From Archaeoglobaceae archaeon (GTDB taxonomy: Archaea > Halobacteriota > Archaeoglobi > Archaeoglobales > Archaeoglobaceae), in NCBI GenBank assembly GCA_025058735.1, contig JANXDX010000004.1:1-64000 (forward strand): DNA of 64,000 bases, read 5' to 3'. Shown in pieces: positions 3,279 through 10,833 of the stretch. The position numbers and the translations under genes were made by a program. How positions within the stretch are numbered: position 1 is the first letter of the stretch; each line of letters starts with the position of its first letter. The notes below the pieces were generated by a model, which was given only the letters and a program-made list of their open reading frames with translations, did not search any database and was not told the DNA's origin.

Positions 3279-4900
3279 AGTACATAGTAATTACTGGCGG
3301 AGTAATGAGTGGGCTTGGGAAAGGAATTACTGCTGCATCGATCGGAAGATTGCTAGTTGACATGGGCTATAAAGTTGTTCCAATAAAAATAGATCCGTAC
3401 GTAAACATAGACGCTGGAACTATGAATCCTTTGCAGCATGGAGAAGTATTTGTCTTGAAGGATGGAACTGAAGTAGATCTAGATCTTGGCCACTACGAAA
3501 GGTTCATGGGAATAGAGTTGACTGGAGAACACAACATAACAACAGGGAAAATTTACAGGAACGTTATCCAAAAAGAGAGAGCTGGAGCTTACTTAGGTCA
3601 AACGGTTCAAATAATTCCACATGTAACTGATGAAATAAAAAATTGGATTAGAGAAGTTGCTAGGAAAAAAAATGCTGAGATCTGCTTAATAGAAGTTGGT
3701 GGCACCGTTGGAGATATAGAGAGCATGCCTTTTCTAGAAGCTATAAGGCAGTTGAGAAGTGAAGAAGGTGAAGAAAACTTCATCCTAGTTCACGTAACTT
3801 TAATACCTTTAGACACTGGAGGAGAGCAAAAAACAAAACCTACACAGCACAGCGTGATGAAGCTCAGAGAACTAGGTCTGCAGCCAGATGTAATAATAGG
3901 AAGGTGTAAAGAGAAGTTGAAAGATTCTACAAAGAAGAAAATATCTTTGTTCTGCGATGTTCCAGTAGAAGCTGTAATAAGTAATGAAGATGTAGAGGAC
4001 ATATACGAAGTACCCCTGATCTTTAAAAGAGAAGGTTTAGATAAGTACATTGCTAAAAAATTAAAATTAGAGTTTAGGGAAGAGAGAGAAGACTGGAAAA
4101 AACTTGTAGATAAGATAAAAAATTTGAAAGATGAAGTTTCAATAGCAATCGTAGGGAAGTATGTTGAAGTTAAAGATGCTTATCTAAGCATAAAAGAGGC
4201 TTTGAAGCATGCAGGAATAGCTGTTGGATGTAAAATTAAATGTATATGGGTTGAAAGTGATGAGTTGGAGAAGTTTAAAGATGTAGAGTTCGATGTGGAT
4301 GGTATTTTAGTTCCGGGAGGATTTGGAAAAAGAGGTGCTGAAGGTAAAATAAGAGCTATAAAATACGCTAGAGAGAAAAATGTACCTTTCTTAGGTATAT
4401 GTTTTGGATTTCAACTTTCAGTTATTGAATTTGCTAGAAACGTAGTTGGATTAGAGGATGCTAACAGCACTGAAATCGAAAAAACTCTACATCCAGTCAT
4501 AGATTTACTTCCAGAACAAAAAAACATCAAAGAATTGGGCGGTACTATGAGGCTGGGGGAAGTTGAAATAGAAATTAAGCTGGGAACTTTGGCTGAAAAA
4601 ATTTATAAAACTAATAAAATTTATGAAAGACATAGACATAGGTACGAGGTAAATCCTGCTTACATAAAAATTTTAGAAGAACATGGACTAGTTTTTAGCA
4701 GTTTTTCTGGAAATAGAGTTGAAACCCTTGAACTTCCAAATCATAAATTTTTCTTTGCAACACAGTTCCATCCAGAGTTCAAATCTAACCCGTTGTCTCC
4801 TTCTCCACCATTTGTAGCCTTTGTTTCTGCGGCTCTGCAGTTTAGGCAGGAGTCTTTGGCAAAAGCGCAAAAGAGATCATCTGAAAAATTGCTACAATAG
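3275..4900 (+). CDS. pyrG: CTP synthase
   Basis: Makes CTP from UTP, ATP and glutamine, the last step of de novo pyrimidine nucleotide synthesis. The 541-residue protein has the N-terminal synthetase domain with its P-loop ([10 protein letters not shown], about 7-16) and a C-terminal class I glutaminase domain. The nucleophile is Cys376 in GICFGFQ, and the His and Glu of the triad are in QFHPEF near 505. It overlaps the preceding Trm112-like gene by four bases. Its last 59 bases run into the 3' end of the opposing DUF996 gene. The C-terminal extension after the triad ([12 protein letters not shown] and beyond) lies in that overlap. Confidence 0.98.
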
Positions 4901-5429
4901 GTGTCAGCAGAACCCCGATCATTATCAAAGTTAATACTGCAACAACTATGTTAGCTATAGCAGTGAACTCAAAAAATCGAACTTTGAAAAGTCTAGATAT
5001 CTTTTTATAGCTCATGTACATGAAGATTGAGCCTAATATATAAAGTACTGAATATATTAAAAAAGCTGAAAGAAACAACCAAGCAGCACTTTGAAATTCT
5101 GGTAGATTTACTATGTTGGCAGGATTGTTCAAAATATCTTCTAAACCACTAACTCCGAGTACTAATTGGACAGCAAACATCACAGCTAAGATTAAAATTA
5201 CCGATGCTGCAATTGTAAGTGCAGCGAATATACTGTAATTTTTCAGTATTTTTGGTTCTTTAGCTTCGTTTGCTAGGTATTTTATCGCTAGTAAAACAAC
5301 TAACAAGCCTACTATTTTCGTAATGAAAAACTTGTGAACTAAGACATCCATTAGTATGAGGACACTTCCTAAAATTCCAACGATCTTGGCTTTTTCTACG
5401 TTGTTCACGTAGTTCGTTGTTTGGGACAT
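4842..5429 (-). CDS. DUF996 family integral membrane protein
   Basis: A 195-residue membrane protein with about five hydrophobic helices. It has the layout of the DUF996 family, common in Archaeoglobi and methanogens and of unknown function: a helix pair, the motif [17 protein letters not shown] before the last helices, and an aromatic FALLP end. The start at 5429 is reasonable, but an in-frame GTG (VNNVEKAK) a few codons in is an alternative. Its coding end overlaps the pyrG end by 59 bp on the opposite strand, the longest convergent overlap here. No partner gene in the same direction suggests a role. Confidence 0.7.
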
Positions 5430-7188: not shown

Positions 7189-7371
7189 ATGTGCGAATCT
7201 AAGGTTCTTTTAAACGGAAAAGTTGTAATGGAAGACGTTGTAAGAATAGTTGTGAAAGATGACAAGGTTAAGGTCTACGACATACTGGGAAGTTCAAAAG
7301 AGTTAAAAGCAAAAGTCGTCGAAGTAGATCTGCTAGGACACAAAGTACTGTTGGAGGGGTTGGATGGTTAA
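7189..7371 (+). CDS. cooT: CooT-family nickel-binding protein
   Basis: A 60-residue protein with the CooT signature: an initiating Met-Cys-Glu-Ser, a VVMEDV segment, and a LKAKVVEVDLLGHKVLLEG end. CooT from carbon monoxide utilisers is a small dimer that binds Ni(II) through its N-terminal cysteine, and related proteins are widespread in anaerobes. The conserved Cys2 is present. Placement is odd: it lies one base after pycA and overlaps the start of gap by eight bases, with no CO dehydrogenase nearby. Nickel binding is inferred from the family. The link to carbon metabolism is inferred from context. Confidence 0.8.
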   Translation: MCESKVLLNGKVVMEDVVRIVVKDDKVKVYDILGSSKELKAKVVEVDLLGHKVLLEGLDG

Positions 7372-8383
7372 AGTTGCTGTAAATGGTTATGGGACGATAG
7401 GGAAAAGAGTGGCAGATGCTGTAGCTAAGCAAGAAGATATGAAAGTTTTAGGTGTTACAAAGACAAAGCCTGATTTTGATGCAGTGATAGCTTCAAAGAA
7501 GTTCGATCTATACGCTGTAAACGAGCAAAGTTTGAAAGTTTTTGAAGAAAATGGAATAGAAGTACATGGAACAGTTGAAGATCTTTTAAAGAAAGCAGAC
7601 ATCGTAATCGATTGCAGCCCAGACAAAGTTGGAGCTGAAAACAAAAAAATATATGAGAAATTTAATATAAAGGCAATTTTCCAAGGTGGAGAAAAGAAGA
7701 ATGTTGCAGAAATTTCTTTCAATTCTTTAGCAAACTACAATGCAGCAGTAGGTAAAAGATATGTTAGAGTTGTTAGCTGTAATACAACTGCACTTTGCAG
7801 ACTTATATACACTTTGAAAGAGAACTTCAAGATTGGAAAGATAAGAGCTACAATACTGAGGAGAGTTTCAGATCCAAAAGAAGATAGTAAAGGACTTATG
7901 AACGCTATAATGCCAGATCCTATAAACGTACCATCACACCATGGACCAGATGTTAAAACTGTGATCCCAGATGTAGACATAGTAACTGCCGCTTTCAAGC
8001 TTCCAACAACTTTGATGCACGTGCACTTCCTATCTATTGAAATGAAAGAAAAAATAAATCCATCAGATGTACTAACTGTACTCGAAAATGAACCAAGGAT
8101 TTTACTAGTATCAGTTGGCAAGGGATTTACTTCAACTGCAAAGATAATAGAGTATGCTAGAGAATTTAGAACTCGCTACGATCTATTTGAGAACGTAGTA
8201 TGGAAAGAATCTATAAACGTTGACGGAAACGATCTATTCATAACGCAAGCTGTTCATCAAGAGGCAATAGTAGTTCCAGAAAACGTTGATGCAATTAGAG
8301 CTATGCTGAACTTGTCAAGCAAAGATGAAAGTATTGAAAAAACTAACAAATCTTTAGGTATCGGTAAGCTCAGTATAGTATAG
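7364..8383 (+). CDS. gap: Type II glyceraldehyde-3-phosphate dehydrogenase (archaeal)
   Basis: Phosphorylating GAPDH of the archaeal class, 339 residues, converting glyceraldehyde 3-phosphate and 1,3-bisphosphoglycerate in gluconeogenesis or glycolysis. The N-terminal NAD(P) site is NGYGTIGKRVADA (about 7-19). The catalytic cysteine is Cys139 in VVSCNTTAL, and HHGPDVKTV is the conserved archaeal motif after it. The gene overlaps cooT by eight bases and follows pycA, which supports a gluconeogenic carbon-flow operon (pyruvate to oxaloacetate, then triose phosphate). Its last 14 bases overlap the converging dacZ. Confidence 0.97.
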   Translation: MVKVAVNGYGTIGKRVADAVAKQEDMKVLGVTKTKPDFDAVIASKKFDLYAVNEQSLKVFEENGIEVHGTVEDLLKKADIVIDCSPDKVGAENKKIYEKFNIKAIFQGGEKKNVAEISFNSLANYNAAVGKRYVRVVSCNTTALCRLIYTLKENFKIGKIRATILRRVSDPKEDSKGLMNAIMPDPINVPSHHGPDVKTVIPDVDIVTAAFKLPTTLMHVHFLSIEMKEKINPSDVLTVLENEPRILLVSVGKGFTSTAKIIEYAREFRTRYDLFENVVWKESINVDGNDLFITQAVHQEAIVVPENVDAIRAMLNLSSKDESIEKTNKSLGIGKLSIV

Positions 8384-9191
8384 ATTGTACCTTTAATATT
8401 TCTTCTCCATCTTTATAAACTCTAATATCTCCTCCAGTTTCAGATACAACAATAGCTATCGCCTTAGTTTCTTTAGTTATAGCTGCACAGGCCAAATGTC
8501 TACCACCTAATCCAAGGTTAAAATTCAAATTTTTTGATGGGACTTCTATATACCTTCCAGCAGAAACAATTATACCTTTCTCATCCAAAACAAAAACTCC
8601 ATCTATTTGGGCAAATTCCATCACACTTTCCCATATTTCTGGATTTTTTATATCTCTATCACTTTCCTTGTGCCCAAAAAATGGGTTGAGAACTAGCTGC
8701 GTAGATCTATTCAAAACCTCCTCTACATCTCCCATTATGAAAGCGGTCCCAATTTTTTTTCCTTCTCTACCTTTGAACGCTAAGTTCATTGCAACTCTTA
8801 GCACAGATCTAAAGGCTTCAGGATCTACTCTTTCAGCGCATCTTTCTATCGCTCTTAAGAAACTGCAACTCTCTAAATCAAAGATACTTAAAGCCTTTAA
8901 AGATTCCAGGTCTACAACGACTAAACTTTTCTTACTTTCAATCCCCTTCAAATAGAAAAGGGAGGCTACGTATTCTTTAACACCTTGCAAATAAGTGATC
9001 CCTTCGAAGATGAACTTATCAGCCTTATTTTCTACTTGACGAAGAACTGTGTCAAGCAGAATAGCATAGTTTTTTGGTGCAAAGACCAACGCTGGATCTT
9101 TTTCAGCTTCAGATTTTGTTATTACAACTATTTTGTCAATTTCAAGTTTTTCTGCCAACTCTTTAGCACTGTCTAAAAGTATTTTCAACAT
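8370..9191 (-). CDS. dacZ: Diadenylate cyclase DacZ (c-di-AMP synthase)
   Basis: A 273-residue protein with an N-terminal alpha/beta region and a C-terminal DisA_N-type cyclase domain. The family condenses two ATP into c-di-AMP, used in euryarchaea for osmotic control. The domain shows IDGVFVLDEKG (DGV at 197-199) and LGGRHLACAAIT (RHL at 231-233), then KAIAIVVSETGG. Canonical motifs are DGA and RHR. Here the third residue of each differs, although Asp, Gly, Arg and His are kept. Activity is therefore likely but not certain. The gene converges on gap with a 14-bp overlap, and tRNA-Gln lies just upstream on the same strand. Confidence 0.85.
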   Translation of the reverse strand: MLKILLDSAKELAEKLEIDKIVVITKSEAEKDPALVFAPKNYAILLDTVLRQVENKADKFIFEGITYLQGVKEYVASLFYLKGIESKKSLVVVDLESLKALSIFDLESCSFLRAIERCAERVDPEAFRSVLRVAMNLAFKGREGKKIGTAFIMGDVEEVLNRSTQLVLNPFFGHKESDRDIKNPEIWESVMEFAQIDGVFVLDEKGIIVSAGRYIEVPSKNLNFNLGLGGRHLACAAITKETKAIAIVVSETGGDIRVYKDGEEILKVQSILY

Positions 9192-9228: not shown

Positions 9229-9301
9229 TAGCCCCGGCCGGATTCGAACCGGCGTCGCGGGATCCAGAGTCCCGCAGGATTGACCACTACCCCACGGGGC
9301 T
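9229..9301 (-). tRNA. tRNA-Gln (anticodon CTG)
   Basis: On the minus strand the sequence folds into a cloverleaf. The acceptor stem is AGCCCCG with CGGGGCT. The D-arm contains GGGTAGTGGTC, and the anticodon stem CGGGA/TCCCG has loop CTCTGGA with anticodon CTG. The T-arm is GCCGG-TTCGAAT-CCGGC, with discriminator A. It decodes CAG (glutamine). There is no intron and no encoded CCA. In archaea, Gln-tRNA is made by amidation of Glu-tRNA. Confidence 0.95.
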
Positions 9302-9398: not shown

Positions 9399-9641
9399 AT
9401 GAAACTTGCTAAGATTGTTGGTAAGGAAGAGGTAAGTTCCATTGAATTGCTTCGTTGGTTTAGAGAAAGATCATCGAAGTACAACTGTTTGTTCTGCAGA
9501 TCGAATTTTGGAAAAATAGTTTGGTACATAGATACAAGACCTGGAGATGACATAAAAATATCGGACAAAAACAACTGCAGCGTATTCATCGTATGCTGTA
9601 ACTGTGGAAAAGAGAACCCACTCTCTGAACTTTTGAAATGA
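9399..9641 (+). CDS. Small zinc-ribbon-like protein of unknown function
   Basis: An 80-residue protein I do not recognise. It has a CLFC pair near 30-33 and a CCNCG cluster near 67-71, spaced as a zinc ribbon with a long insert of hydrophobic strands between them (KIVWYID, VFIVC). The N-terminal 25 residues look helical. A likely TATA box, GTATAAAAT, lies at 9354-9362, so the leader is short. It overlaps the next gene by four bases (ATGA), which in turn overlaps an MBL-fold hydrolase, so the three form an operon. Function is unknown; metal binding is inferred from the cysteines only. Confidence 0.6.
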   Translation: MKLAKIVGKEEVSSIELLRWFRERSSKYNCLFCRSNFGKIVWYIDTRPGDDIKISDKNNCSVFIVCCNCGKENPLSELLK

Positions 9642-10240
9642 TCCTCATAGTTGGTGGTGGAAAGGTAGGTGAAAAAGCTTCAGACCATTTTTCCAGATGC
9701 GGAAAAAATTTTTTAATTATAGATCCTGATGAAAATTGCGGAGCTGCAAAGAAGTATCCAGAGAATTTTTCAAAAGCTTCAGCCTCTCAACTTGTTGAAA
9801 TAGCTGAAAAATATAAACCAGATTTTATAATTCCTGCTGCACCGATCCATGTAGCCGCCGAAGCTTTAACATCCTTAGGCTTCAAAGCTGATTATGAAGT
9901 TGCAGAAAGTTTTCTTTCATGGTTACCGTCTAGGATAATACTGAGCTATTCTATGGGGAGTGTTGTTGTAAGTTACAATAGAAAGATGTGTTTAGAAAAC
10001 TGTATACAGCCAGAAATTTGCCCTATAACAAAAATAAAAAAACCTACAGCTATGTATAAACTCTTAGAATTTTGTATTCCTAAAGTTTTTGTTTTAGTCA
10101 GTGAGAGTCTAGCTCCTGGAATCGGCGGATTCAAAGGAGAAAATTTTTTAGAAGTAGTTAGAAAAGCGAGAAGTTTAGAGAAAATAATCGTTGCTACAGC
10201 TTGCAATTGCCATGGAGTAGTTACAGCGCTGAGAAAATGA
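9638..10240 (+). CDS. Rossmann-like protein with cysteine cluster, unknown function
   Basis: A 200-residue protein opening with a nucleotide-binding-type loop (ILIVGGGKVGEKASDHF, then FLIIDPD), as in NAD(P)-binding TrkA-N or siroheme-type dehydrogenases. The middle region (DFIIPAAPIHVAAEAL) continues an alpha/beta fold. Around residues 119-130 there is a dense C-x3-C-x5-C-P motif, and near the end ATACNCHG adds two more cysteines. This could bind an iron-sulfur cluster or zinc. I know no family with this combination. It is sandwiched, with ATGA overlaps on both sides, between the zinc-ribbon protein and the MBL-fold hydrolase, so the three probably act together, perhaps in redox or metal chemistry (inference). 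Confidence 0.6.
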   Translation: MILIVGGGKVGEKASDHFSRCGKNFLIIDPDENCGAAKKYPENFSKASASQLVEIAEKYKPDFIIPAAPIHVAAEALTSLGFKADYEVAESFLSWLPSRIILSYSMGSVVVSYNRKMCLENCIQPEICPITKIKKPTAMYKLLEFCIPKVFVLVSESLAPGIGGFKGENFLEVVRKARSLEKIIVATACNCHGVVTALRK

Positions 10241-10833
10241 GACTTTTTGATAAAATCTATAGTTATATTTGGGGAAAAGCTTTTCTCGACTGTTCTAATG
10301 CTTACGTTATAGAAAGTGATTTTGTTCTCTTAATAGATCCGGGAAAATTGAAAAGCTATTCAAACTTACTCGGACTGATGAGAAACGATAAAATAAGAAA
10401 CGTAGATTTTATTCTAAACACACACCTTCATTTAGATCACTGCGAAAGTAACGTAATGTTCAAAGAACATGGGGCTACGGTAAGTTTTTATCCTATCAAA
10501 AAGCAACCAGATGTACTCCCAGAAGAACTTGAAGATCTGTTCGATTTTGAAATCTTGTTAACTTCGGGACATTCTGAAGATAGTATTTCAATATACTTCC
10601 AAAACTGCGATGCTGCAGTAGTTGGAGATATCGTTTCTGAAAGAGGAGTTGGTAGGTTCGATCTACCAGAAAGTAATCCAAAAAAATTTATAAAATCAAT
10701 AGAAAAAATTCAGGGTTTGGACGTTAACTACCTTTTACCAGGTCACGGAAGGATCTTAGAAGGAAGAGAAGGCATATATCTTTTGCTTGAAAAAGCAAAA
10801 GTTGTCTTAGAAAAATTTATCGAACTCCGATGA
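10237..10833 (+). CDS. Metallo-beta-lactamase-fold hydrolase
   Basis: A 198-residue MBL-fold protein. Metal ligands are visible in THLHLDHCES (HxHxDH), the next His in SGHSED, the bridging Asp in VVGDIV, and the last His in LPGHGRI. This is the set for a binuclear zinc or iron hydrolase of the glyoxalase II-like class; the substrate is unknown. An upstream in-frame TTG at 10201 would put 36 bases inside the previous gene. The ATG at 10237 overlaps the preceding stop as ATGA and gives a normal family start, so I prefer it. The 3' end overlaps the opposing enoyl-CoA hydratase gene by 17 bp. Confidence 0.85.
   Translation: MRLFDKIYSYIWGKAFLDCSNAYVIESDFVLLIDPGKLKSYSNLLGLMRNDKIRNVDFILNTHLHLDHCESNVMFKEHGATVSFYPIKKQPDVLPEELEDLFDFEILLTSGHSEDSISIYFQNCDAAVVGDIVSERGVGRFDLPESNPKKFIKSIEKIQGLDVNYLLPGHGRILEGREGIYLLLEKAKVVLEKFIELR

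Follow-up and report, generated by a model that had tools for sequence, protein, structure and literature searches.

A previously unnamed protein family of anaerobic archaea and bacteria with a predicted Rossmann/Cys5-His architecture and a possible link to corrinoids

The window analysed here is a stretch of 64,000 nucleotides from a contig of an Archaeoglobaceae archaeon, the source assembly of which amounts to 1.22 Mb and is 99.84% complete. It contains a cassette of three genes, termed A, B and C. The features of this region are:

8370-9191, reverse strand, DacZ-type diadenylate cyclase gene (DAC 72 bits, DacZ_A 37.5 bits)
9229-9301, reverse strand, tRNA-Gln gene, upstream of gene A
9399-9641, forward strand, gene A, 80 residues, zinc-ribbon-like, with C-x2-C ... 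C-C-x-C-G
9638-10240, forward strand, gene B, 200 residues, predicted Rossmann/RCK-like N-terminal domain followed by a predicted Cys5-His C-terminal domain
9638-9880, forward strand, residues 1-81 of B, RCK/TrkA-N-like Rossmann domain with GxGxxG and Asp29 (AF2 pLDDT 94)
9923-10237, forward strand, residues 96-200 of B, C-terminal domain with Cys118/122/128/189/191 and His192
10237-10833, forward strand, gene C, 198 residues from the ATG at 10237, metallo-beta-lactamase (MBL)-fold hydrolase

The initial annotation had described three genes coupled by ATGA overlaps, encoding an 80-residue Cys protein, a 200-residue protein with a nucleotide loop and a C-x3-C-x5-C-P cluster, and a complete MBL hydrolase. 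All of this was borne out: the cassette spans exactly 9399-10833, ATGA forms a 4-base overlap at both the A/B and the B/C junction, gene A carries the two Cys motifs listed above, GGGKVG lies near the start of B, the cluster corresponds to C118-x3-C122-x5-C128-P, and gene C contains H-x-H-x-D-H. A second invariant group in B, C189-x-C191-H192-G, had been missed. A, B and C probably constitute a single transcript that is restricted to its own lineage. For gene C, the ORF program called a longer version of 210 residues from an upstream TTG start. On the 3’ side, the cassette is followed by an enoyl-CoA-hydratase-like gene (identified by eye) and a DUF169 gene, and no corrinoid (B12) gene adjoins B in the window itself. 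The DacZ-type cyclase gene adjoins tRNA-Gln just upstream of the cassette and, at 7189-7368 of the window, a CooT-type gene (60 residues, CO dehydrogenase accessory, PF10133, 66 bits) lies directly 3’ of a putative acetyl/propionyl-CoA carboxylase biotin carboxylase gene (read by eye).

Judged by its sequence, C is an ordinary MBL-fold hydrolase: it scores 70.2 bits against Lactamase_B (PF00753), where the cut-off is 22.7, which places it in that family, and its metal motif reads HLHLDH. Relatives of C were found in 17 of 60 related genomes at E <= 1e-20, its own genome counted. In genus g5, a Fer4_16 protein that is QueG-like by eye adjoins one relative of C (L057, 712-1455), and a further QueG-like protein, also by eye, adjoins another (L059, 2175-2879); QueG-like enzymes are B12-dependent. 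Gene A matched no Pfam family. Its relatives are confined at E below 1e-10 to 5 of the 60 genomes, the window's own included, and comprise those of three genus g2 genomes (56-57% identity), in which C-x2-C and C-C-x-C-G are kept, and a weak match in G019.

The tight coupling of the three genes had been taken to argue for a common function involving metal or redox chemistry. A neighbourhood survey was read for conserved co-occurrence of the trio, using the 60 related genomes and 24 fetched Archaeoglobaceae loci of B (Archaeoglobaceae being the family name that we apply to group f1, 36 genomes, after its named relatives in Archaeoglobi/Archaeoglobaceae). Among the 60 genomes, A adjoins B in the window's own genome only. 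B and C share an operon in four genomes, i.e. this one and those of genus g2, in which ATGA overlaps join the genes B - ExoIII-type - C and A lies far from the operon. Relatives of C in genera g5, g10 and g11 are accompanied by other genes, and the remaining B-bearing genomes of the window's own genus lack matches to A and C. Since A-B-C is found in one genome out of 60, the trio fails as a conserved functional unit. That the three proteins form one metal or redox pathway, for which the ATGA overlaps between all neighbours, the shared B-C operon of g2 and the possible metal sites in all three proteins could be cited, is thus largely refuted by the survey and appears very improbable. The metal or redox part of the proposal is retained for B, where such chemistry is likely, and not as a joint function of the trio. 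The middle protein, for its part, did turn out to have no characterised family in profile searches.

B matches were obtained in 27 of the 60 genomes, the window's own counted; the match in G002 is a fragment, and the weak ones in G041 and G050 are unlikely to be B. Together with the relatives of A and C, these matches indicate that the three ORFs are not a product of chance. The protein has no Pfam or NCBIfam model of its own and gives only sub-threshold matches to Rossmann families: TrkA_N (PF02254) scores 17.4 bits on the window's B, below the gathering threshold of 23.8, and NAD_binding_7 reaches E 0.011 and 16.8 bits with a cut-off of 22.1. A profile, A1, built without loci L042, L052 and L055, was used to scan genome contigs and retrieved 134 B loci. 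The best 80 of these 134 belong to Archaeoglobi, Jordarchaeia, Methanomicrobia, Methanomethylicota, Desulfobacterota and a few other taxa, including two Verrucomicrobia/Kiritimatiellaeota. In sampled genomes, B is present in 51 of 117 from the class that includes Desulfosarcina widdelii (at least two being fragments only), in 15 of 119 from the class of a Methanolinea genome, and in 1 of 288 from the phylum to which the Kiritimatiellaeota genome belongs, where the single match is to the genome on which the sample was centred. No match was found among plasmid records. From its sequences, B is a previously unnamed family of anaerobes, both archaea and bacteria; the literature searched, which covers few subscription journals, yielded no report of it.

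The window's B and 79 loci were aligned in 80 rows, L098 being excluded as it has no complete B ORF; the window and 41 of the 79 loci make up a smaller alignment, A3, of 42 sequences. Identical in 80/80 are Gly6, Gly8 and Gly11 of the GxGxxG motif, Cys118, Cys122, Cys128, Cys189, Cys191 and His192, as well as Pro125, Ser155, Gly163, Thr187 and Ala188. Asp29 is identical in 42/42. An acidic residue at this place is usually associated with NAD, not NADP. It is the five invariant Cys and the one invariant His that make metal or redox chemistry of B likely. Among the 42 diverse members, the families listed are either nucleotide-binding ones or single chance matches; neither an RCK_C (TrkA_C) domain at E <= 0.01 nor Cob_adeno_trans (PF01923, PduO) was among them. 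Fusion of B to a second domain was considered and rejected, as the extra length of the ORFs covering B in L154-L158 looks, by eye, like unrelated start extensions.

The AF2 model of B has a mean pLDDT of 94.1 and a pTM of 0.89. It shows a small Rossmann domain in the N-terminal half, while the C-terminal domain, of about 100 residues, is beta-rich and reaches a pLDDT of 94.6 when modelled alone. The best VIA-align rows, at Z 5 to 6, are RCK, PurT/PurK and other Rossmann proteins; all rows for B lie below Z 8, where a match may reflect a common arrangement only. KtrA aligns with Z 5.9 over 85 residues (rmsd 3.1), many other Rossmann proteins having similar Z. For the C-terminal domain, Foldseek returned no PDB chain at E <= 0.001, which is no proof of a new fold. 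Searches of solved structures gave nothing better than E 0.037 with the B profile and, with a profile of the C-terminal domain, a best E of 0.021, the match being to part of a chaperonin subunit.

B thus defined can be compared with two Rossmann systems. With RCK/TrkA-N (KTN) proteins such as KtrA, it has in common the N-terminal Rossmann domain, GxGxxG and an acidic residue after strand 2; it differs in falling below the Pfam gathering threshold, in lacking RCK_C and in having its own Cys5-His C-terminal domain, and no potassium channel gene was seen near B. The precorrin-2 dehydrogenases SirC/Met8p, which are tetrapyrrole enzymes, are similar to B in size and have an NAD-binding Rossmann domain that aligns with it (Z 5.1, 81 residues, rmsd 3.0); however, the NAD_binding_7 match to B is under the cut-off, and the beta-rich C-terminal domain with its invariant Cys presumably differs from the SirC arrangement. 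The RCK resemblance raises the possibility that B senses redox state or NAD(H), the RCK-like domain reading the NAD pool and Cys5-His reading redox or metal state, with lineage-specific partners. The better structural matches include RCK/KtrA and Rex-family proteins, TrkA_N is the commonest family among the diverse members (31 of 42 at E <= 0.01), and the neighbours of B differ by lineage, as they would for a general regulator. Yet no DNA-binding or membrane domain was detected in the family, there is no constant partner, and a likeness to RCK at these Z values is general for small Rossmann domains. We therefore regard a sensor role as possible and rather unlikely.

We then considered the genes surrounding B. 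Corrinoid-related genes were encountered in several lineages. In one Archaeoglobi genome (G007, L037), the genes for methylmalonyl-CoA mutase (MCM) - B12-binding subunit - MeaB - CoA-transferase III - B - PYC_OADA follow one another on one strand, and in another (G006, L035) MCM, B12-binding and MeaB genes likewise lie on the strand of B. In a Verrucomicrobia locus, L108, a cobalamin riboswitch (RF00174, at 4791-4995) lies upstream of an operon in the order Peripla_BP_2 - B (4-nt overlap) - TonB receptor - FecCD - ABC ATPase. The TonB receptor has a B12 receptor as its best NCBIfam match, and the riboswitch-led operon is read as BtuF-B-BtuB-BtuC. L109 starts inside a Peripla_BP_2 gene, has the same order and ends with a Dph6-like gene. 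In five Methanolinea-type loci (L103, L104, L105, L110 and L194), a FecCD permease gene is oriented divergently to B and in L103 has BtuC as its best NCBIfam match, and the TIM barrel encoded near B in the three loci that were scanned has CbiR (NF041277) as its best NCBIfam match, at 53.5 (L104), 59.7 (L110) and 75 bits (L103), all below the cut-off of 105. The TonB, BtuC and CbiR assignments are thus best matches below curated cut-offs. CbiR is a TIM barrel (PMC7733943). In L106, FecCD is 13 bp from B; CobB/CfbB-type genes lie on the other strand, 127 bp (L113) and 132 bp (L199) from B; in L148, B is convergent with a Peripla_BP_2 - FecCD - ABC operon that has a riboswitch at its head; and in Desulfobacteria, a MeaB-like gene (L154) and an MCM-like gene (L164) lie less than 1 kb from B on the other strand. 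With respect to CbiR/CbiZ cobamide remodelling and BtuBFCD uptake systems, B adjoins BtuC-, CbiR- and BtuF-like genes, including in a riboswitch-led operon, but is unrelated to CbiR and to the listed Btu proteins.

A corrinoid-type gene lies within 5 kb of B in 16 of 136 loci, a set that includes some places fetched twice; counted by lineage, the figures are 11/62 at 60% identity and 7/31 at 50%. Two of 80 control regions contain such a gene. These controls, each of 10.6 kb, came from 20 closed genomes that carry B and were placed at fixed fractions of each, one region of the first set (G031) being shifted by 200 kb since it contained B. One-sided Fisher tests of B loci against controls gave P values of about 0.002 for both lineage counts and 0.012 by locus, which are optimistic because the list of query families is post hoc: it was chosen after some B loci had been seen and was partly taken from the B loci themselves. 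FecCD alone is common, with 1 to 10 matches in each of 30/30 genomes.

Across the 36 Archaeoglobaceae genomes, MCM and B are both present in 22, B only in 3 (G001, G009 and the fragment-bearing G002), MCM only in none, and neither in 11. The association has a Fisher P of 6e-7 by genome, a value confounded by kinship; by genus, in 12 genera without the mixed own genus g1, both are present in 8 and neither in 4 (P 0.002). Outside Archaeoglobaceae, MCM occurs without B in G036, G037, G045 and G054. Two MCM genes are present in the window's own genome, and one belongs to an operon that also encodes the B12-binding subunit, MeaB and an adenosyltransferase of PduO type (PF01923). The latter has a gene of its own in 8 of the 20 MCM loci fetched, this genome included. 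B resembles MeaB and the PduO adenosyltransferase in occurring in the same type of operon (MCM, B12-binding, MeaB) and co-occurring with MCM, but shares no Pfam family with them, and the presence of a PduO-type gene in the MCM operon of the window's own genome indicates that B is not a mere stand-in for PduO. The same co-occurrence could suit an acyl-CoA or carboxylic-acid enzyme acting with CoA-transferase III, the B12 genes being nearby through MCM metabolism; a CoA-transferase III gene lies directly 5’ of B, closely spaced or overlapping, in 13 of the 24 Archaeoglobaceae loci. Because the CoA-transferase cluster stands beside B only in Archaeoglobi loci and leaves the riboswitch/Btu and CobB neighbours unexplained, we consider such an enzyme improbable. 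A tie between B and sulfate reduction was also tried and rejected: dsrA (TIGR02064) is above the cut-off in 21 of the 60 genomes, and the counts in the 36 Archaeoglobaceae (B and dsrA, 11; dsrA only, 10; B only, 14; neither, 1) show no positive association.

A corrinoid-type neighbour is absent at 120 of the 136 loci, some of which are short contigs. The bulk of the family consists of Desulfobacterota-type loci, most of them without a B12 link, and none of 44 such loci (15, 13 and 16 sources) contains a cobalamin riboswitch. RF00174 occurs in 57/57 genomes searched, nearly all of them B-bearing Desulfobacteria; among the matches listed, the only one near B, by eye, is that of L148 (G070). Three contexts were seen in Desulfobacterota-type loci: Nif3 / zinc-ribbon / rnpB / YggT (Nif3 by eye), YggS / Maf (by eye), and TatD and FolC (both by eye) together with a phosphodiester-glycosidase gene and a sigma-54 activator; tRNA genes are also among the neighbours. 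Metal-type neighbours were seen too: in L154 a ZnuA-type gene adjoins B, in L162 DUF364/DUF4213, with a putative role in heavy-metal chelation, is near B, and in L200 DUF2284. Together with the Cys-rich invariant site, these would fit a general handler of Zn, Fe or Co, a cytosolic chaperone or sensor that does not act on corrinoids. Each metal-type neighbour, however, occurs in one locus only, and corrinoid-type neighbours outnumber them and are spread over several phyla, so that a general metal handler is also an unlikely explanation.

Taking the observations on B together (the family, its invariant residues and predicted two-domain fold, its gene linkages and its co-occurrence with MCM in Archaeoglobaceae), an NAD-type Rossmann domain joined to Cys5-His in anaerobes, repeatedly beside genes for corrinoid uptake, remodelling, amidation and mutases, leads us to read B as a corrinoid handler. 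More precisely, B is tentatively proposed to be an NAD(H)-binding Cys-metal protein (Fe-S or thiolate-metal) involved in corrinoid (vitamin B12) handling, with Cys5-His as the predicted ligands; genomic linkage similarly points, tentatively, to a corrinoid as its substrate, and reduction as its specific reaction is less likely than corrinoid handling as such. The Rossmann domain would bind NADH, while Cys5-His in the C-terminal domain would carry a metal centre or serve as thiolate ligand. B might then reduce or pass on incoming or inactivated corrinoid and so make it available for remodelling, for adenosylation or for loading on methylmalonyl-CoA mutase. More speculatively, B could found a new kind of corrinoid-handling protein, in which an NADH Rossmann domain and a hitherto unseen Cys5-His metal domain activate or reduce cobamides; this kind might even be common to anaerobic archaea and bacteria and serve uptake, remodelling and methylmalonyl-CoA mutase alike. 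The B12 link of B is testable and moderately supported.

How B12-type cofactors are reduced and recycled in strict anaerobes, which do not use the flavin reductases of aerobes, is only partly understood. B is a concrete candidate, with six invariant metal-type ligands, a presence in Desulfobacterota, methanogens and Archaeoglobi, and a place in B12 uptake and mutase operons. Even if the B12 link fails, B is a family without a Pfam or NCBIfam model, the C-terminal domain of which has no detectable solved relative.

Three minor observations were made along the way. In the window's own genome, FecCD matches with several in-frame stops (G000:C25:46515-47181) look like a decayed transporter gene. 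In the Desulfobacterota-type loci L120, L127, L128, L130, L132, L135, L138 and L149, B is closely preceded by the gene for bacterial RNase P RNA. Finally, L127, filed under Aenigmatarchaeota, has B together with YggT, DUF167 and rnpB, resembling the locus of the deltaproteobacterium L128; YggT is identical in the two, indicating that the L127 contig is probably mis-binned.
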